A stretch of DNA of 64,000 nucleotides from the NCBI GenBank assembly GCA_025809375.1, contig CP099514.1, forward strand, positions 2,232,001 through 2,296,000. The letters are read 5' to 3'. The DNA comes from Bacillus zhangzhouensis (GTDB lineage Bacteria > Bacillota > Bacilli > Bacillales > Bacillaceae). The notes under the pieces are model-generated. The model searched no databases. It saw only the letters and a list, made by a program, of their open reading frames with translations, and was not told where the DNA came from. This document shows, piece by piece, positions 6,419 to 19,560 of this stretch. The position numbers were made by a program, and so were the translations under genes. Each line of letters opens with the position of its first letter. Positions within the stretch are counted from its first letter, which is position 1.

Positions 6419-7687
6419 TTAAAAACCAAGTCGTTCTGGTGGTTGTTGCTCCAATGATTCGCTGATTCTTTTAAATTCTTCTTTTTTTATTGGATTTGTA
6501 AAGTATTTAGATAATTCTTTTCTCAGAGCAAACGGATGGCTTGTATAAACAAATGTTGTGTTAATACTTGTAACAATTTCTTCATTAAGACCTATATGAT
6601 CTAAATGTTCTGCTAGGGTAAACCGCGCTTCATCATTTGCCCAATCAAATGCTCTTATTAACCCCTCACTCTCGTTAAATACAAGATTTTGGTACGATTT
6701 AAAGTATCCATGAAATTCTAAATCAGAAATGACACTGTCGGATAAACTATTCCGTTCAGCTAATATATTTTTTATAAAATAATCAAAAACTTCTTCTTTA
6801 TCCTCATTAATTAGTCCATTTCGTAATAATGCTGCTAATATGGTAAATTTATGAGTGTACATATTTTCAAGTTTTGTTCTCCAAAAATATCTTACATCTT
6901 CAGGGTTAGAATAAAACAAACTTAAATGCTCAGGGTATGTCCCTAAATATGCTTCTTCTAAATGTGAACGTAATGGAGCTTGCTTTATTACCTCAATTAT
7001 TTTAGCAGATATAGGTGAATTTAATTTAATTAATTCATTATACAAAGAAATTCCTCTATCATAATAATCCTCATCTTCTAATCCAGCGATTATTTCATAC
7101 AATTCCTTTATAAAGGAATTTGCATCTTCTTCGTTTACTGCAAAAGGAACATCCTGAATTATATTTTTAAAATCAGCATTTTTGTTAGTATAATTTTGGT
7201 CAAAATATTTATCAATTTTTTGTAGTAATGCTTTAAAACCACCATCAACGAAAAATTTAGGTAAATTAGAAATCAAAAATAACCAGAATGACTCTACATG
7301 AGAGTAGCTAATAGTATTCGGTTTTGAATGAGCACAATCATTCCTTCTTCCTTTCCAATATAGTACTTGATCTCTTAAATCTTGTGTTATATTAAAAAGT
7401 CTTTTTCCCTCATTAATTATTTTTATACTTTCAATTACCTCCAAATCCCACCTATCTTCATTTCTAAGATTGTTTTGTATCCCACCCCATGTATGAGGAT
7501 TATGGTTTTTAGGCATTTCAGCTTTAAGAATTCTTTCCTTAATAACTGATTGGAAAGCTAAAAATGAAAAGAGAAAAGATGCTCTATATGCAGAAGCCTT
7601 GTAACAAGTAATTGATTCTTCAAATAAACTATTTATATCCTCTTTAAAATTTTGTTGATCTAGCCATTTTTCAATTTGCAACCTCAC
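6419..7687 (-). CDS. HEPN-like putative ribonuclease, prophage accessory gene
   Basis: A 422-residue protein of unrecognised family. Its N-terminal helical third contains R115-N-D-C-A-H120 (WKGRRNDCAH), which matches the Rx4H active-site motif of HEPN-superfamily RNases with the usual polar residue after Arg. The preceding segment (LFEESITCYKASAYRASFLFSFLAFQSVIKERI) resembles the helical hairpin of HEPN domains. The C-terminal two thirds are helical without a known motif. The start is a GTG with GGGAGGG upstream. Own terminator, AT-rich, neighbour to a PIN-domain gene. An RNA-targeting anti-phage role is inferred, not shown. Confidence 0.65.
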   Translation of the reverse strand: MRLQIEKWLDQQNFKEDINSLFEESITCYKASAYRASFLFSFLAFQSVIKERILKAEMPKNHNPHTWGGIQNNLRNEDRWDLEVIESIKIINEGKRLFNITQDLRDQVLYWKGRRNDCAHSKPNTISYSHVESFWLFLISNLPKFFVDGGFKALLQKIDKYFDQNYTNKNADFKNIIQDVPFAVNEEDANSFIKELYEIIAGLEDEDYYDRGISLYNELIKLNSPISAKIIEVIKQAPLRSHLEEAYLGTYPEHLSLFYSNPEDVRYFWRTKLENMYTHKFTILAALLRNGLINEDKEEVFDYFIKNILAERNSLSDSVISDLEFHGYFKSYQNLVFNESEGLIRAFDWANDEARFTLAEHLDHIGLNEEIVTSINTTFVYTSHPFALRKELSKYFTNPIKKEEFKRISESLEQQPPERLGF

Positions 7688-7870
7688 TATATTCCCTCCC
7701 TAATTCTAAAAGTATATCCTTATTTATCCACATAATCCACCAATTCACCATATCTATTATTGTGTCTAACTCAGGGAATCGCTGAATCCTTTACCCCTCT
7801 TGCTTTTCAGCCATTTCCTTAAAATGAGTTGGACATTTTCTCATTATGGTTAGTTGATGAAAAAGAGCGC
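7688..7870. other. Intergenic region between HEPN-like and PIN genes
   Basis: AT-rich gap with no convincing ORF. It should contain the HEPN-like gene's own promoter, because a terminator separates it from the upstream PIN gene. I could not place the promoter with confidence. Confidence 0.4.
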
Positions 7871-7908
7871 AAAAAAAGACCCATCTGCGACTTCACCTAA
7901 TGAGTCTA
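7871..7908 (-). terminator. Terminator of the PIN-domain gene
   Basis: On the minus strand AGACTCAT pairs with ATGGGTCT across a 15-base loop and is followed by seven T. It lies just after the stop of the 7935-9224 gene. Confidence 0.7.
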
Positions 7909-7934
7909 TTTCCCAAACAAGTTTACTTTTTTGA

Positions 7935-9224
7935 TTAATTAAGTAGTGCTACTTTGATAATACTGGAGTTATTTATCAATGCATCCTCTAATACATAGAA
8001 TATATCCTCAATCTCAGAATCGGTTTTAATATCTAAAAAGAACTGCGAAGTATATATTAAACCATCTTCTACTCTAGTAATGTTATGATAATCCCAAGTG
8101 ATTTTTGGTAAACCTCTAACGCGTTTACTTGATTGAAAGTATTTTTCTATTGAATTATTCACACGTGCACAGTTTATCTCACCAAAACTTTCAATACGAA
8201 TCCTTAACGTCTGGACTCTAGGTCGATTATTCTCCGTGAGATTTTCAGTTGTCATATCAGTATCCATATAGTAATTTGTGAGTTTAGATCTGTGTGCGAT
8301 TTCATTATGTATATTTTTTATATTATCTGCTAATTCTTCAACTTCGTTAGCTGCACTCTCATTTACAATATCTTCATTTCTATTTATGAATCCTATTGGA
8401 CTAAACATGTAAAGCTTCTTTTTGGTTTCATAGGAAAATTCATTGATTAATTCAATTCGCGGGCCAATAACCTTACCTCCTAACTTATACCACCAGTCTG
8501 ATTTTTGCTCATCAGTAATAAAAATTATATCTCTTTTTTCAACTGCGGCATATTCAATAATCTGCCTCCAAAGGATGTAATCTCCATATCTATTCTGTAT
8601 AATATATTTATTATAATATTTAAAGCTCCCATCCTTAGCTTTATCATCATCATATCCAGGAGGAATCTTTTTAGAAAAACGCTCTTCAGCAGTTTTTTCT
8701 AAGCTTTCAATTTCTTTTGCAGTAAAGGCAAGCCCTACCTTTTCAGAAAATAAATTTGTAACTTTCTCTTTAATAAAATCTTTTTTTAGATAACTGATTT
8801 CATTTTTCAACTGTTTTTCCAAACCCTCAATGTGGTTATCTCTTAATTTTTCTAAATCAGATATAAAATTATCTATATCTTTTCTATGTCTTTTTTTAAA
8901 ATCAGATAAATCCTTCAATAAAATTTTCTCTATTTCTTTCGGAACTTTACTGAAAGATTCAGAAATTTTCGTATGATATTCTTCTTGCTCCAATATTACT
9001 TTTTTTCTGTTAAAGTGATACTCCAATGCAACTTGATGCGGCATCCAAAGTTGATCTTGGTATTTATTAAGCAAATTAAGGATTTGTACTGTAGTATCCT
9101 TAGAATACCTGTATAAATTTAAAAGAACATTTGTATCCAATACAATTATTGAATCCTGCCAAATTCTTTGATCATTTTTTTCAATATAAAATTCCTTGAA
9201 AATCTTTTCCAAAAAAATTCCCAT
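7935..9224 (-). CDS. PIN-like domain protein (PIN_8 type), putative RNase
   Basis: 429 residues. The first 275 form a PIN-like nuclease domain interrupted by a coiled-coil insertion (about residues 75-185). Acidic residues are placed as in PIN RNases: Asp30 in VLDTNVLL, Glu68 in HQVALEYHF, Asp215 in YGDYILW, and Asp238 and Asp243 in FITDEQKSDWW. The C-terminal 150 residues are unrecognised. The ribosome site is poor: AAAGG abuts the ATG. Its place beside a HEPN-like gene in a prophage cargo region suggests a defence or exclusion function, which is inference. Confidence 0.82.
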   Translation of the reverse strand: MGIFLEKIFKEFYIEKNDQRIWQDSIIVLDTNVLLNLYRYSKDTTVQILNLLNKYQDQLWMPHQVALEYHFNRKKVILEQEEYHTKISESFSKVPKEIEKILLKDLSDFKKRHRKDIDNFISDLEKLRDNHIEGLEKQLKNEISYLKKDFIKEKVTNLFSEKVGLAFTAKEIESLEKTAEERFSKKIPPGYDDDKAKDGSFKYYNKYIIQNRYGDYILWRQIIEYAAVEKRDIIFITDEQKSDWWYKLGGKVIGPRIELINEFSYETKKKLYMFSPIGFINRNEDIVNESAANEVEELADNIKNIHNEIAHRSKLTNYYMDTDMTTENLTENNRPRVQTLRIRIESFGEINCARVNNSIEKYFQSSKRVRGLPKITWDYHNITRVEDGLIYTSQFFLDIKTDSEIEDIFYVLEDALINNSSIIKVALLN

Positions 9225-11225: not shown

Positions 11226-11918
11226 TTAATGACTATTTAAATAATCTTTCGGAAGAATTTCATTTAGAATGTCCATGTCAACATACTTTTCTTTATTTCT
11301 CTTTGTAGAATCTTTAAACTTAAATATATTTTTGAGATCGAAATCAAAATAATTTTCTTCAGATTTTTTCTTTATTTGATTAATTTTTAAAAAGCTTTCA
11401 ATTTTTCTATCCATCTTTTCTAATTTTTCATTTATTAATTCGTTAAAATTAACTTCCTCAACATTTCCTAACCCTTTAGTTATTAAAAAAATCAGTTCTT
11501 GATTCATACTAATATTATCTGACTTAGCTTTTTTAGCTACCAATGCATGCAATTGACTCGGAATTCTAAGTGATATTTTCCCTGAATATAATCGTTCTTC
11601 TGGTAAACGTTTTTCTGGTAAGGGTATATCTAAACCCAACTCTAATCTAGAATACATCCAAGAGTATTTAACATCTTTTAAATTTTCTCTAGCTTCATCC
11701 TCTGTCTCGCCCTCAGCCCTGCATCCAGGAAGATCTGGATGTTCAGCAATCCAAATTTGATCTTCACCATTTTCATAAGTCAATGTACCGTATTGTATTT
11801 CAAGAAATTGTTCTAACTCATCATTTTTTACTTTTTCATCGATTTCATGGTCATACTCTAAATCCTGATCAAATAAGTTGACGTCAACATTTTCTAAGTT
11901 GTATTTTTCTTCACTCAT
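11226..11918 (-). CDS. hicB: HicB-family antitoxin with ribbon-helix-helix domain
   Basis: 230 residues. The middle (about residues 40-105) is the HicB fold with WIAEHPDLPGCRAEGETEDEARENLKD. It is followed by a ribbon-helix-helix DNA-binding segment, YSGKISLRIPSQLHALVAKKAKSDNISMNQELI (about 112-146). It is longer than most HicB antitoxins because of an acidic N-terminal extension and a charged C-terminal tail. It should neutralise HicA and bind the operon's operator. GAGAGGATGA precedes the ATG. The gene lies 17 bases after hicA. Confidence 0.85.
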   Translation of the reverse strand: MSEEKYNLENVDVNLFDQDLEYDHEIDEKVKNDELEQFLEIQYGTLTYENGEDQIWIAEHPDLPGCRAEGETEDEARENLKDVKYSWMYSRLELGLDIPLPEKRLPEERLYSGKISLRIPSQLHALVAKKAKSDNISMNQELIFLITKGLGNVEEVNFNELINEKLEKMDRKIESFLKINQIKKKSEENYFDFDLKNIFKFKDSTKRNKEKYVDMDILNEILPKDYLNSH

Positions 11919-11934
11919 TTAAAATCATCCTCTC

Positions 11935-12189
11935 TTACTTTACTATACCTAGAAGTGTAATCAATTCAATAATCGCATTGATTTGGTATTTTCTAACACT
12001 CTTTTTATCATCAACCAAGACAATCGGATTGTTGGGATAGCTTTCGTGAGTAAATACACGATGGCTTCCTTTCCCCTTAACAACAGTGCATTTAATAGAC
12101 TTTAAAAATCGTGCAACTTCATCGTATCGTAAATCCTTTGGAGAGGGTTTTTTTAGTAATCTATCCAAAAACTTTTGAACTTTAGTCAA
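11935..12189 (-). CDS. hicA: HicA-family mRNA interferase toxin
   Basis: HicA toxins are small dsRBD-fold RNases. Here the catalytic His sits in KGKGSHRVFTHES, with the family's following strand and PIVLVDDKK segment. I place the start at TTG 12187-12189 with GAGGTG 7 bases upstream, giving 84 residues, the family's usual size. An ATG at 12202-12204 is an alternative. A GTG at 12250-12252 would lie inside the promoter and cannot be used from it. The toxin-first order matches classical hicAB. Confidence 0.82.
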   Translation of the reverse strand: MTKVQKFLDRLLKKPSPKDLRYDEVARFLKSIKCTVVKGKGSHRVFTHESYPNNPIVLVDDKKSVRKYQINAIIELITLLGIVK

Positions 12190-12230
12190 ATTTTTGCACC
12201 TCATTACCATGTCGCTATATATATATGATA

Positions 12231-12259
12231 ATGATATTGAATTTGATACCACAAGTCAA
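12231..12259 (-). promoter_or_regulatory. hicAB promoter
   Basis: TTGACT at 12254-12259, a 17-base spacer and TATCAT at 12231-12236 on the minus strand, with transcription expected from about 12224. An imperfect palindrome TGATATtatataCGATATCA just upstream (about 12275-12294) and a nearby ATGATATTGAA half-site are candidate HicB operators. Confidence 0.65.
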
Positions 12260-12396: not shown

Positions 12397-13151
12397 CTAG
12401 GCTCTATTTGATATATCAACAATCGCTTTAAAAATTGGGTAAATTTGTTGTGGTACAACAGCGTTTCCTGAAGCTATACTTCTGTCCACCCGATTGGGAA
12501 ACCCATCATCCACTCCAATAGCTGGGGATTGATGTATTTGCCAATAAGATGGGGAAACCGTTGGCCTAATCCCCCCGGCAAGATCACCCCGTGTGTTCCT
12601 TTTACTTCCGAAGGAGCTAACGGCCTGATGGGCTTGTGATTTTGACTCGCGGCCGGAGTGGGCAACAACAAATGTCCTGTATCTTTGATGTGGTGCACCG
12701 ACACCGACAGCCGGTAATACGAATACCCTTTTTTGGTAGTCTTCACTTTCCAAGTCGGACAGCACTCTGTCCAAGCCCATTGTGACGTGTCCAGCAACGT
12801 TTTCTCCAACAACCCAATCGGGTCGTAATTCTTTTGTGAGCCGGAACATTTCGGGCCAAAGCCATCTATCGTCTTGGTCTCCTTTTCTTTTCCCGATAAC
12901 ACTTTCTCCTTGGCAAGGGTATCCACCTGAAAGAATTCCATTGTTTCATTAGGTTCGATAACTCCTTTTTCTTCTAAAATTCGTCTGTTCAAAGAACGTG
13001 CATCATCAAAGATGGGAACGCCCGGGAAATTCTTTCTTAAGACCCGCTGACAAAATTCGTTCTGTTCACAGAAGGCGACAGTTTCAATCCCTGCCCATTC
13101 TGCAGCGAGTGCAATTCCTCCTAACCCTGCAAATAGTTCAATTTTCTTCAT
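12397..13151 (-). pseudogene. C5-cytosine DNA methyltransferase, frameshifted
   Basis: The N-terminal part in one frame shows motif I, MKKIELFAGLGGIALAAEWAG. The catalytic PCQ loop (GGYPCQGES), ENV motif (VVGENVAGH), QRYRTF motif and C-terminal GNAVVPQQIYPIFKAI are in another frame. The frames must join near 12935-12950, where the downstream frame has an upstream stop and reads ILSGGYPCQ. A one-base loss around the AATGG there explains it. By chance the first frame stays open to 12474. As written, no active enzyme is encoded unless the ribosome shifts or the base is a sequencing error. Confidence 0.85.
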
Positions 13152-16837: not shown

Positions 16838-17041
16838 TTAAAAAAAATATGCCGGTGGCAAATTTAGTTTTTCACATAGTTGGACTAATGTTGAATGCGA
16901 TGGGTTAACTTTTCCTCTCTCTAGTTTACATATATACGAATTAGAAAAGCCTGTCGCTATACCGAATTGCCGCTGAGTTTCTTTTCTTTCTGATCTTATC
17001 ATTTTTACTTTTTCTGCAATTGCATAATCAACATGATTCAT
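16838..17041 (-). CDS. XRE-family regulator, Cro-like
   Basis: 67 residues, essentially one helix-turn-helix domain (AEKVKMIRSERKETQRQFGIATGFSNSYICKLERGKVNPSHSTL). The ATG at 17039-17041 has GGAGGTG six to seven bases upstream; an earlier in-frame ATG lacks a site. It diverges from the CI-like gene across a repeat array and heads the early operon, so a Cro role is likely. Confidence 0.85.
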   Translation of the reverse strand: MNHVDYAIAEKVKMIRSERKETQRQFGIATGFSNSYICKLERGKVNPSHSTLVQLCEKLNLPPAYFF

Positions 17042-17059
17042 TTTTTTCACCTCCAAAAC

Positions 17060-17112
17060 GCTTCCTTTAGGAAGCATAAATAAAATGTATCAGCTTCTGC
17101 TTATTTGTGCAA
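17060..17112 (-). promoter_or_regulatory. Candidate early leftward promoter with palindromic operator
   Basis: Minus-strand TTGCAC at 17107-17112, 17-base spacer, TACATT at 17084-17089. Just downstream of the expected start site is a perfect palindrome-type element, GCTTCC-TTTA-GGAAGC at 17060-17075, a plausible operator for one of the two regulators. Confidence 0.5.
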
Positions 17113-17150: not shown

Positions 17151-17162
17151 ACGTGTTATAAT
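17151..17162 (+). promoter_or_regulatory. Extended -10 promoter for the CI-like gene
   Basis: TG-T-TATAAT at 17154-17162 is a perfect extended -10 on the plus strand with a poor -35. Transcription from about 17169 would run through the whole 12-bp repeat array before reaching the CI-like gene. Confidence 0.55.
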
Positions 17163-17286
17163 TAGTAACAGTATTGTTAACAGTATTGTTAACAGTAATG
17201 TTAATAGTATTGATAACAGTATTGAAAACAGTATCAGTATTGTTAACAGTGTTGATAACAGTATCAGTATTGAAGTCAGTGTTAAT
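17155..17286. repeat. Array of 12-bp operator-like repeats between phage regulators
   Basis: About nine 12-bp units with consensus AACAGTATTGTT lie head to tail from 17167 to 17286, preceded by a degenerate unit. Two units carry an extra 6-bp CAGTAT insertion. Each unit is an imperfect palindrome (AACARTAYTGTT). The array fills the space between the divergent XRE genes, so repressor binding is the natural reading. The 12-bp period keeps reading frames open through it, creating spurious ORFs. Confidence 0.85.
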
Positions 17287-17311
17287 GGTGTAAATCGAGG
17301 TGACATTTTTT

Positions 17312-17743
17312 ATGGATAACAAAAAAATTGAATTAATCTCAATAAACTTAAAAAGACTAAGAAACGAGCAAAATCCTAAACTTTCTATACGGAAACTTGC
17401 TCAAGAAGTTGGTTTAAGTAACGGGTATTTATCAAAACTTGAATCTAAAAAAATTAAAAGCCCATCTTTAGATGCTCTGACAAAACTTGCGGATTTTTTT
17501 AATGTCGATCCAACTTATTTTGTCACCGACCCAAAGGAACTCGAAAAAATGGGTAAAGAAGCTGAGAAAGTAGTTTTCGCGAAAGAGCTAACCCTTGAAA
17601 ATATTAAAAATGCAAATATTATAGATGAAAATGGCAAGCAAATTTCAGATGATGAGCGAAATTTCATGCTGGATGCACTAAAAAATTACAGAGCTTCTAA
17701 GGCTAAATATCTTTCTGAAAATGATTCACTGGAAGAGGATTGA
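17312..17743 (+). CDS. XRE-family phage repressor, CI-like
   Basis: 143 residues. The N-terminal helix-turn-helix (LKRLRNEQNPKLSIRKLAQEVGLSNGYLSKLESKKIKSPSLDALTKLADFF) is followed by a helical C-terminal tail without an autocleavage domain. The ATG at 17312 is chosen because GAGGTGAC lies 7-8 bases upstream; a GTG at 17300 is inside that site. It is the only plus-strand gene of this prophage segment, divergent from the Cro-like gene, and its 3' end is overlapped by a convergent small ORF downstream of the arbitrium genes. Confidence 0.85.
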   Translation: MDNKKIELISINLKRLRNEQNPKLSIRKLAQEVGLSNGYLSKLESKKIKSPSLDALTKLADFFNVDPTYFVTDPKELEKMGKEAEKVVFAKELTLENIKNANIIDENGKQISDDERNFMLDALKNYRASKAKYLSENDSLEED

Positions 17744-17805
17744 TTTTGATCTTCTTTTTTTGTTGTTTCTATAATCTCCATTAATTCTTCATATTTAATA
17801 GCCAT
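17686..17805 (-). CDS. Small ORF antisense to the repressor gene, aimX-position
   Basis: 39 codons (MAIKYEELMEIIETTKKEDQ...) with GGAGGGAAG before the ATG. It overlaps the last 58 bases of the CI-like gene in antisense. It follows aimP, a terminator and an inverted repeat that covers the -35 of a possible promoter (TATAAC at 17841-17846). In SPbeta and phi3T the AimR-controlled transcript, aimX, lies in just this place after aimP. The equivalence is by position only; the product resembles nothing I recognise. Confidence 0.5.
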   Translation of the reverse strand: MAIKYEELMEIIETTKKEDQNQSSSSESFSERYLALEAL

Positions 17806-17840
17806 TTTCTTCCCTCCAAAGAAACACTCGTTGCGCTTTT

Positions 17841-17899
17841 GTTATACTCCATATTTTAAAATAATTTCCTATTTTCGTATTTTTTGAAAATAGGAAATT
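17841..17899 (-). promoter_or_regulatory. Candidate AimR operator and activated promoter
   Basis: A perfect 14-bp inverted repeat, AATTTCCTATTTTC (17863-17876) and GAAAATAGGAAATT (17886-17899), with a 9-base centre. The left arm covers the -35 position (GGAAAT, a poor match) of a minus-strand promoter with -10 TATAAC at 17841-17846 and 17-base spacing. A weak -35 under a dyad is the layout expected of an activator-dependent promoter. It is not followed by a T run, so it is unlikely to be a terminator. Confidence 0.5.
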
Positions 17900-17914: not shown

Positions 17915-17951
17915 AAAGACGATACCCATTTTATAGGTAGCGTCTTTTTTA
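17915..17951. terminator. Bidirectional terminator between aimP and the CI-like gene
   Basis: Stem AAGACG-TACC with one mismatch and an 8-base loop (17917-17947). It is followed by TTTTTT on the plus strand and by a T-rich tract on the minus strand. It would end both the repressor transcript and the aimR-aimP transcript. Confidence 0.7.
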
Positions 17952-17960
17952 TTATCTTTA

Positions 17961-18095
17961 TTACATTCCTGGCCTTACATCTTTTGTTTCATATATCGTT
18001 TTTGGATCGTTAGTGATAAGTGAGTGAATTTCCGAAACAACTATTGTTGCTCCTAGTGTAATTGTTAAAATAATTACATTGAAACGTTTAGTCAT
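17961..18095 (-). CDS. aimP: Arbitrium peptide precursor, AimP-like
   Basis: 44 residues directly downstream of aimR, with a GGGGG-type ribosome site 7-8 bases before the ATG. It has the build of secreted arbitrium precursors: a basic start (MTKRF), a hydrophobic export segment of about 16 residues (NVIILTITLGATIVVS), a polar spacer and a short C-terminus ending TKDVRPGM. Known arbitrium signals are the last six residues (SAIRGA in phi3T, GMPRGA in SPbeta), which predicts DVRPGM here. The Gly stays at position 5, but Met replaces the final Ala. It is the right size and place, but the processing site is inferred. Confidence 0.75.
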   Translation of the reverse strand: MTKRFNVIILTITLGATIVVSEIHSLITNDPKTIYETKDVRPGM

Positions 18096-18114
18096 GTATA
18101 GCACCCCCTAACTC

Positions 18115-19218
18115 TTAGAGTGTATACCTAAATCCAACTCTATTCAATTCATTTTTTGGGAAACTTGCCCTGAAATAATCTTTGTTTTTTGAAAAATAAT
18201 GATGAGATAATAGCAACTTTTCTGATGACAACTCTTTTATTCCATCAAAAAGAAGCGCATATTTATTATACCTATCATCCTGATAAAATTTACTTAAATC
18301 CCCATCATGTTTTAATAACATGGTGAATTCACTCACGGCAAATTCATCATTAATTCTTTTATTCCAGTATTTTTGAAGGAACGCTATTTCTTCTTTATTC
18401 TCTATTATTTCTGCCTGTCTATCAGGGAATTTTGAATAAAGGTCAATACATTTAAGATAATAAGAAATTGATTGTTCATAGGATTCTAGAAAATATGAAA
18501 GACCTAAAATATGATAAGCAGTAATGTTGTGAGTTATGCTGAAATTTCTATCCAAAATTCTGTTAGCTATTTTTCTTGATTGGATTAATTCTGTTTTTTG
18601 CTTTAAGTAAATATTAACTTGAAGTTCATCTAACCTAGCACCGTATGCCATTTTTAGAAACGGATCACTAACCTGAAACAATAAGTCATTTATTTGATCA
18701 ATAGTATAAATAGTTAAATCATAAAGACCATTCAAATAATAATAATAAACCTGTAAGACCTTCACCATGATTTCAGTTTCCAAAAATGTGGTCTTAAAAT
18801 TTCTTAGGTTATCTAAAAAAGCGTTCCTTTCAAATGTAAACCTCGACTCAATCATTAGTGAATATAAAGCACATAACTCTTGAGACTTGGGATTCCTTTT
18901 TATCTTATATTCTCGTGTAATAACACTTGTATAATCGTACAATTGTTTGGAATAGCAATATTCTAAGGCAGCAGGAATATTTTTAGAACTAATGCCTTCT
19001 TTAAAATAATTTAAAATGAGTTCAATTTCGTTCTCTTTGTCAATGTAATTAATGATCTTATGAACAATCCAGAACGAGACATCCTTACCATTTAAAAATT
19101 TGCTTAAATAACTACTGCTTATGCCCAGCTTTATTGCAACTTGTTTTTGACTTTCCTTAGACATTTCTATTGAGTTTCTTAAATGTGTCCGTAAGTCTTT
19201 CGCGATTGCACTTGTCAT
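18115..19218 (-). CDS. aimR: AimR-type arbitrium lysis-lysogeny receptor
   Basis: 367 residues. The N-terminal helix-turn-helix (about 22-60: SQKQVAIKLGISSSYLSKFLNGKD) is followed by TPR-like helical repeats to the C-terminus. It has AimR-like marks such as NIPAALEYCYSKQLYDYTSVITREY, corresponding to the ALEYA region of the SPbeta protein, and EEIAFLQKYWNKR. AimR proteins activate a downstream transcript until bound by the secreted peptide, then lysogeny is favoured. AAGGTGAT precedes the ATG. It is immediately followed by an aimP-like gene. An Rgg or other TPR-peptide receptor is less likely given the context. Confidence 0.85.
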   Translation of the reverse strand: MTSAIAKDLRTHLRNSIEMSKESQKQVAIKLGISSSYLSKFLNGKDVSFWIVHKIINYIDKENEIELILNYFKEGISSKNIPAALEYCYSKQLYDYTSVITREYKIKRNPKSQELCALYSLMIESRFTFERNAFLDNLRNFKTTFLETEIMVKVLQVYYYYLNGLYDLTIYTIDQINDLLFQVSDPFLKMAYGARLDELQVNIYLKQKTELIQSRKIANRILDRNFSITHNITAYHILGLSYFLESYEQSISYYLKCIDLYSKFPDRQAEIIENKEEIAFLQKYWNKRINDEFAVSEFTMLLKHDGDLSKFYQDDRYNKYALLFDGIKELSSEKLLLSHHYFSKNKDYFRASFPKNELNRVGFRYTL

Positions 19219-19347
19219 ATATGATCACCTTACCATTGTTAAATTTATCATGAAGTACAAAAAAATGTTGTCGGAAATTGTCGCAGAAGTATGAATTTTT
19301 GCTCTAATTAATAAATCAATTCAATTATAATCCTATTGTGTAATTTA
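19219..19347. promoter_or_regulatory. aimR upstream region
   Basis: AT-rich region at the phage end. A minus-strand TATAAT at 19324-19329 with a weak TTAATA-type -35 is a possible aimR promoter. Two TTGTCG repeats 4 bases apart, near 19268-19283 on the plus strand, may be a regulatory site. Transcription from the gerE promoter could also enter from the right. Confidence 0.4.
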
Positions 19348-19560
19348 TTAACATAAGACTTTCGGAGTTATTTTGGTTGATTGAAGATTAAATTTGCAAA
19401 AGGTATGCTTATCATTCGAAATGTGATTCCGAACAGTTTTTTCGCTAATAAAAAGCTCGCTTGCAATTTCTTTTGTTGTTTTATCTTGGACGAGCAATTC
19501 GAATACTTCTCTTTCTCTTTTGGTTAATAGCGGCTTGGATTGAAACTCTTTCTCCTTCAA
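19348..19560 (-). pseudogene. gerE: gerE 5' part, interrupted by the prophage
   Basis: Residues 1-49 match the sporulation regulator GerE (LuxR-type HTH; MKEKEFQSKPLLTKREREVFELL... SEKTVRNHISN), including its TTG start with GGAGG upstream. Known GerE proteins continue with about 25 more residues (AMQKLGVKGRS...). Here the frame instead runs through 21 phage-derived residues (DKHTFCKFNLQ...) to a stop. GerE acts late in the mother cell on coat genes. The 3' part should lie beyond the left prophage end. Precise excision would restore the gene. Confidence 0.93.
19405..19440. other. attR region of the prophage within gerE
   Basis: The point where gerE coding leaves the known protein sequence falls in ATTTCGAATGATAAGC, minus strand, near 19408-19421. 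The attachment core must be here, but its exact extent needs the other prophage end, which is outside the window. Confidence 0.75.

Follow-up and report, generated by a model that had tools for sequence, protein, structure and literature searches.

A real and probably complete arbitrium system, the type of system in which a receptor and a secreted hexapeptide let phages decide between lysis and dormancy, lies in the 64,000-nucleotide stretch of Bacillus zhangzhouensis DNA analyzed here (the window). We hold with fair confidence, reading from the DNA, that it is the arbitrium switch of a 40-kb prophage, composed of receptor, signal, operator, and effector, in which peptide-free AimR would activate a small antirepressor. 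At the sequence level, the support consists of the identities of AimR and AimP, a conserved dyad, a conserved small open reading frame (ORF), and a convergent repressor. A preliminary description of this DNA had proposed an arbitrium cassette of receptor and propeptide, and these two parts hold; the rest of the system, namely, the dyad, the ORF in the aimX position, and the convergent repressor, had been overlooked.

The counts given below derive from a signature search that started from 121 loci and yielded 76 rows with the downstream signature of the clade. These rows are redundant, with several phages present twice, and comprise 39 distinct pairs of propeptide and small ORF and 36 distinct propeptides. 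The 45 loci without the signature are L091, an unrelated chance match; L101, which has the same layout and was missed by the signature through a base change in the hairpin described below; and 43 other AimR-family loci taken as other clades, 19 of which were placed in the tree, all outside the clade.

The receptor belongs to a distinct AimR clade

Both ORFs of the cassette are present on the minus strand where they had been placed, 367 amino acids (aa) at 18115 to 19218 and 44 aa at 17961 to 18095. The preliminary description had suggested searching AimR collections with the longer product, an HTH and TPR protein, and it groups with AimR, matching the NCBIfam AimR equivalog NF038310 with 221.4 bits against a cutoff of 70 over positions 1 to 365 of 365, and the Pfam AimR model with 115.4 bits. 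None of the Rap, Rgg, PlcR, and NprR models was listed for it in Pfam and NCBIfam up to an E value of 1, a range in which most matches with values over about 0.1 are removed by the HMMER filters. A profile built from the 17 rows of the clade matched ten chains among solved structures named arbitrium receptor, AimR, or YopK (E values from 9.5e-26 to 2.5e-17), including 6S7L, reported as the Katmira AimR. The profile was required for these matches, since a search of the solved structures with the single sequence of the window AimR returned designed TPR proteins and unrelated matches only, without any AimR chain. Maximum-likelihood analysis of 38 rows places the window receptor inside the 17-row clade with support of 100/100 and SPbeta AimR in a separate 10-row clade with support of 100/99; the midpoint root of this tree serves for drawing only, and long branches were flagged among the outside rows. 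The curated cutoffs, the structure matches of the profile, and the tree placement uphold the earlier assignment of this protein to AimR and not to Rap or Rgg.

In our own reading of the profile alignment, the Asn that contacts the peptide backbone in SPbeta AimR (N202) aligns with N202 of the window receptor and is conserved in at least 90% of alignment A1. The window residue aligned with the carboxylate clamp of SPbeta, R228, is not Arg in a region where this alignment is uncertain, so the window AimR may hold its peptide in another manner. A phage collection searched with the window AimR gave no match, and the same collection searched with the AimR of L051 gave 10 records, every one of them below 60% identity. 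A promoter-like site of aimR (TTAATA-16-TATAAT; 19324 to 19351, minus strand) comes from a consensus promoter scan in which this class of sites is no better than chance (11 observed, 13.1 in shuffles).

The propeptide carries a code that is ordinary for its clade

The gap between aimR and aimP measures 19 nt and contains a GGGGG Shine-Dalgarno stretch. The aimP product (17961 to 18095, minus strand) opens with a basic segment (MTKR), continues through a hydrophobic stretch, and closes with a polar tail whose last six residues are the predicted hexapeptide DVRPGM, encoded at 17964 to 17981 on the minus strand; the export signal was judged by eye. The propeptide is kept in close relatives, with a pN/pS of 0.33 in the pumilus-type group (summed over pairs), and the six DVRPGM codons show synonymous differences only across the 7 sequences compared. 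Because the receptor passes the AimR cutoffs and the propeptide is conserved in close relatives, the aimR-aimP cassette is, on sequence grounds, more than chance. The proposal of an AimP-type propeptide is borne out by a short ORF just 3' of aimR with a conserved C-terminal hexapeptide and a predicted export signal. A similar search on SPbeta returns GMPRGA, given as the signal of that phage in PMC6458997.

How unusual is the code? Among the 36 distinct propeptides of the AimR clade, we found DPPVGM, in an internal position, in 9; DVRPGM in 8, with the window included; EVRVGM in 5; DVKVGM in 4; EIIVGA and EIRVGM in 3 each; EIRVGA, EIKVGM, and EIKVGA in 1 each; and one odd multicopy arrangement in L042. 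The idea of a distinct code stands insofar as DVRPGM differs from SAIRGA and GMPRGA, but the code is not divergent, being shared by those 8 propeptides. Met at position 6, which had been read as a departure from the known signals, is ordinary, because positions 5 and 6 are Gly-Met in 30 of the 36 propeptides and Gly-Ala in 5; the candidate of an unusual code marked by Met-6 is thereby ruled out. The retention of Gly at position 5 had been noted correctly: this residue, together with Asp or Glu at position 1, is common to 35 of the 36, with L042 as the exception, and the acid at position 1 supports the six-residue frame. Thr occupies position -2 in all 26 propeptides with a C-terminal code.

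L042, a basal relative, encodes a multicopy DPPVGx propeptide, with DPPVGK twice and DPPVGL once in the printed stretch. In L051, L052, L053, and L058, the internal DPPVGM hexapeptide is followed by a tail of 17 to 25 residues ending in FY, meaning that a second cleavage would be needed. Phage phi106 reportedly uses DPPVGM, the code also found in this AimR clade. Receptors with Gly-Ala signals (all 8 rows) differ from those with Gly-Met signals (38 rows) at window positions 127, 143, 172, 249, 252, 271, 283, 303, and 357, as well as at positions 2 and 26 on the N-terminal side and in some end-gap columns; since the Gly-Ala rows are close kin, no conclusion is drawn from these residues. No paper printing DVRPGM, DVKVGM, EVRVGM, EIRVGM, EIRVGA, EIKVGM, or DPPVGM was found in the open-access literature; the survey by Stokar-Avihail (2019) lies outside this scope, so these codes may be published. 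That survey distinguished nine AimR clades with preferred codes, according to PMC9232636.

A conserved dyad follows aimP

Behind aimP lies a 33-bp dyad, TTTCCTATTTTC-N9-GAAAATAGGAAA (17865 to 17897), whose conservation and linkage to aimP point to an AimR operator. It matches once in the window, with 0.00 matches expected, and once in its own 3.28-Mb genome. Scanning viral contigs with the dyad alone retrieved 45 stretches, 44 of them with the dyad directly behind an aimP. AimR is encoded in 36 stretches, each with aimP upstream of the dyad; the remaining 9 comprise 8 with aimP directly upstream, 7 of which begin at the aimP start codon, and the chance match L091. The dyad spans 33 bp in 39 of the 44 linked stretches and 32 bp in the other 5, and its center is free. 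The dyad is present as a single copy in 12 of 44 genomes of the genus, each time beside an AimR; L045, a clade member among these genomes, has a diverged dyad that the pattern missed. The reversed pattern, used as a control, matched in 16 of the 44 genomes, so the background of the dyad pattern is not zero, and no forward match lies away from an AimR.

PMC9232636 describes a dyad in the equivalent position that is bound by the AimR proteins of SPbeta and Katmira; it differs in sequence and has a 25-bp spacer (ATCACT-N25-AGTGAT). The SPbeta-type operator pattern, ATCACT-(22-28)-AGTGAT, has 0 matches in the window. From these data, we infer that the window AimR binds the dyad at 17865 to 17897. 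A weak terminator-like hairpin (17915 to 17947), kept in the clade, lies between aimP and the dyad; its U-tract in the direction of aimP is broken by CG, and the consensus scan does not list it.

A LexA-type box is common in the leaders and degenerate in the window

The putative aimX promoter of the window is a weak -10-like TATAAC (17841 to 17846, minus strand), read by eye and not listed by the promoter scan. TATAAT is present in 20 of 37 distinct leaders, located 36 to 38 nt after the dyad in 18 of them and at 26 nt in 2. Only 27 to 41 nt separate the dyad from the ORF in L048, L049, and L050, which leaves little room for a promoter, and the dyad may act differently there.

GAAC-N4-GTTC is the core of the Bacillus LexA site. 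A perfect copy is found between the dyad and the ORF in 22 of the 37 distinct leaders (the window is among the 37), preceded by TATAAT in 19 of the 22; the leader of L003 has an intact core. Between its -10-like site and the ORF, the window has a degenerate box, GCAACGAGTGTTTC (17821 to 17834, minus strand), with 11 of 14 consensus positions and CAAC replacing GAAC, and it is weak in view of its shuffle P value of 0.034. The leaders of L001, L048, L049, L050, L054, and L061 have just 7 to 9 of the 14 positions. SOS control is thus likely in many relatives of the clade, given their intact cores, and doubtful in the window, given its degenerate box. The Shine-Dalgarno sequence of the aimX-position ORF follows at 17809 to 17817 on the minus strand.

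A small ORF in the aimX position faces a cI-like repressor

The ORF in the aimX position (17686 to 17805, minus strand; 39 codons) is a candidate small antirepressor on account of its position, its selection, and its covariation with the repressor. It lies tail to tail with the cI gene, the 3' end of which it overlaps by its final 58 nt. In all 76 rows, the dyad is succeeded by a ribosome-binding site and a small ORF of 23 to 39 codons, both features having been required by the search itself; in each of the 30 distinct pairs examined, this ORF ends -2 to 58 nt past the stop codon of the convergent cI. Over codons 2 to 19, outside the cI overlap, pN/pS is 0.15, 0.15, 0.28, 0.36, and 0.22 in five groups, values that are sums over pairs and hence not independent. 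By this codon measure, the small ORF is under purifying selection.

The covariation was measured on 24 nonredundant loci drawn from 37 distinct loci with all parts. Distances between small ORFs correlate with those between the C-terminal 60 residues of cI (r = 0.577), and the correlation stays at 0.484 with AimR and the cI N terminus removed (P = 0.0005, the floor of 2,000 permutations). Uncorrected correlations of the small ORF are 0.453 with AimP, 0.316 with the cI N terminus, and 0.240 with AimR (all P < 0.01); with the cI C terminus removed, those with AimR and the cI N terminus are 0.059 (P = 0.19) and 0.038 (P = 0.27), respectively. The small ORF tracks the C-terminal domain of the repressor better than it tracks AimR. 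L071 and L062 are mosaics, in which aimR-aimP of one type is joined to a small ORF and cI of another (types judged by eye). Both the covariation and the mosaics fit an antirepressor matched to its own repressor; plain linkage also fits, as genes that adjoin or overlap could give such a correlation by linkage alone.

SinI-like mimicry, in which the small protein would copy the C-terminal helix of cI, was rejected: local alignment over the 24 loci scored 23.2 for a locus's own cI, 22.6 for that of another type, and 23.2 for shuffled sequences. When five small ORFs were compared with PHROGs, none of the five matched a family below an E value of 0.1.

Repressor, early region, and prophage

The convergent repressor is a cI-like HTH protein of 142 aa (17315 to 17743, plus strand) identified by Pfam. 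Its Pfam matches above the cutoff include no peptidase family, and the prophage has no Peptidase_M78 (ImmA-type) gene, the two of this genome lying elsewhere, which implies that another inactivator would be needed. A cI-like repressor is found within 330 nt, in the convergent layout, in 72 of the 76 loci. No cI ORF was found in the other four, L057, L058, L061, and L078; the stretches of the last three end less than 0.5 kb from the dyad. Beyond cI, a cro-like gene for a 79-aa HTH protein (16838 to 17077, minus strand; Pfam) probably heads the early lytic transcript, judging from its position. The interval between cI and cro holds an unusual array (17160 to 17290) built from AACAGTATTGTT units of roughly 12 bp, in which repeat comparison found 8 register copies of a 45-nt reference spaced by 12 to 18 nt; these units are probably cI operators forming a cooperative array.

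The prophage ends about 0.2 kb beyond aimR, on its right side. There, the ORF at 19348 to 19560 matches Pfam GerE with 60.8 bits, and we take it to be the 5' portion of gerE, which encodes a late sporulation regulator. The prophage splits this gene, leaving the 3' portion at a distance of 40 kb, at genome positions 2211277 to 2211354 (L056), beside a large recombinase; precedents exist for sporulation genes split by prophages. The recombinase (510 codons; genome positions 2211389 to 2212918) is, from its sequence, presumably a serine recombinase, and an alignment with its counterpart in a relative covers 510 of 510 residues of the latter. The recombinase gene adjoins aimR in L004 and L005, as expected for the circular form of the phage. 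The frames of aimR, aimP, the small ORF, cI, portal, and terminase are all open.

Several other genes of the region were recorded. A C-5 cytosine methylase gene is apparently split over two overlapping minus-strand frames (12397 to 13151; the frame at 12474 to 13151 was scanned), and Pfam identifies a HicB-like and HicA-like pair at 11226 to 12252. A 429-aa PIN_8-domain protein (7935 to 9224; Pfam, 207 bits) adjoins a 422-aa protein (6419 to 7687) that has no Pfam family and a weak PADLOC match to AbiTi (17.8 bits); together, these two genes (6419 to 9224) are a possible cargo pair.

A proposed switch and its alternatives

How would these parts work together? In the switch that we propose, peptide-free AimR would bind the dyad at 17865 to 17897 and activate the small gene at 17686 to 17805. 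Its 39-residue product would inactivate the cI-like repressor (17315 to 17743), perhaps with help from antisense transcription that runs into cI from its 3' end, which would release cro and the replication genes and make the phage lytic. AimP would be exported and trimmed to DVRPGM, which would accumulate, reenter the cells, and remove AimR from the dyad; the small protein would then not be made, cI would hold, and lysogeny would win. The LexA-type core before the small gene, where present, would add a requirement for DNA damage, and arbitrium control may dominate in the window, where the box is degenerate.

A broader proposal for the AimR clade, put forward more tentatively and with somewhat less than even confidence, is that its effectors constitute an antirepressor family of very small proteins, every member being tailored to the C-terminal domain of the cI that it meets tail to tail. 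The dyad would serve as an exchange joint at which aimR-aimP-dyad modules and small gene-cI modules are swapped, allowing any signal code to be wired to any repressor, and the optional LexA box would be an SOS gate that is being lost in the lineage of the window.

The third element could instead act as RNA, with an aimX transcript that is antisense to the cI mRNA, or collides with its transcription, lowering the repressor and with the small ORF mattering little. The convergent arrangement would permit this, as the ends of aimX and cI meet or overlap in every distinct pair examined, and aimX of the SPbeta group is termed a noncoding RNA in the literature consulted. We consider this unlikely, since codons 2 to 19 of the small ORF, which lie outside the overlap, are constrained (pN/pS of 0.15 to 0.36), and an open frame with a ribosome-binding site is present throughout the 76 rows, subject to the search requirement noted above. 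It seems still less likely that the dyad is an RNA hairpin, an attenuator or antiterminator governing read-through from aimP into the small ORF, rather than an operator of AimR. The transcript of the aimP-aimX interval, including both hairpin and dyad, is much more stably folded than shuffled versions (z = -4.92), the weak terminator-like hairpin stands just before the dyad, and L049 and L050 have hardly any promoter space after it. These points are opposed by the fixed span of 32 to 33 bp with a free center in 44 of 44 linked stretches, by the phasing of TATAAT to the dyad in 18 of the 20 leaders with this element, and by the dyad that SPbeta and Katmira AimR bind at the equivalent place, as described in PMC9232636.

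That the cassette is a decayed remnant or an eavesdropper, having lost its control over the prophage, is a reading that we regard as very improbable. Although the SOS-like box is degenerate and the cytosine methylase gene of the prophage is apparently split, the frames of the switch and of portal and terminase are intact, the recombinase is full length against its relative, and both aimP and the small ORF are under purifying selection.

Comparison with known systems

The proposed antirepressor switch shares with SPbeta, phi3T, and Katmira the order aimR-aimP-dyad-small gene, the receptor family, and a hexapeptide with Gly at position 5. It differs from SPbeta in having its AimR in a separate clade and in lacking the ATCACT-type operator, and from all three in that a cI-like HTH repressor stands where the accounts consulted place YopR, that the peptide does not end in RGA, and that, in our alignment, R228 of SPbeta is not conserved. 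The survey of Stokar-Avihail (2019) already contained a repressor gene beside a viral quorum-sensing pair, as mentioned in PMC10075063. In phi106, aimX is possibly under joint SOS and arbitrium control (PMC12768286, citing Aframian et al. 2022). Many relatives described here, with a LexA-type core and the dyad, would share this logic, a likeness drawn from the published description only; the window differs in its degenerate SOS-like box and its DVRPGM code.

A further parallel is found in the TF-smORF antirepressor modules of Vibrio and Aeromonas phages, including Qtip, where the protein turned on by a regulator is small, changes rapidly, and disarms the cI of the same phage, as outlined in PMC10432266 and PMC11323111. 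Like the switch proposed here, which is read from DNA, these modules have a regulator, quorum responsive in some, that drives a small anti-cI protein. In those accounts, the smORF is divergent from a regulator that is not AimR, and any known quorum signal is made by the host, whereas the small gene of the window is tail to tail with cI.

Biological implications

Possible joint SOS and arbitrium control of aimX has already been reported, with phi106 as the published example; the new part is a candidate, the repressor-matched antirepressor suggested by sequence. The code is ordinary for its clade, and the layout of the effector is the interesting and testable part. The action of phi3T AimX has been worked out, on the host MazEF system according to the published accounts consulted; for phages whose repressor is of the cI type, a different answer is needed. 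A direct and cheap test of one is offered by the layout of the window, with one small protein, one repressor, and one reporter. If the proposal is true, it would connect communication between phages with the antirepressor logic of Vibrio phages, and the dyad would be a DNA signature by which such systems can be found without a protein search. It would also explain how phages exchange signal codes without rewiring their repressors.
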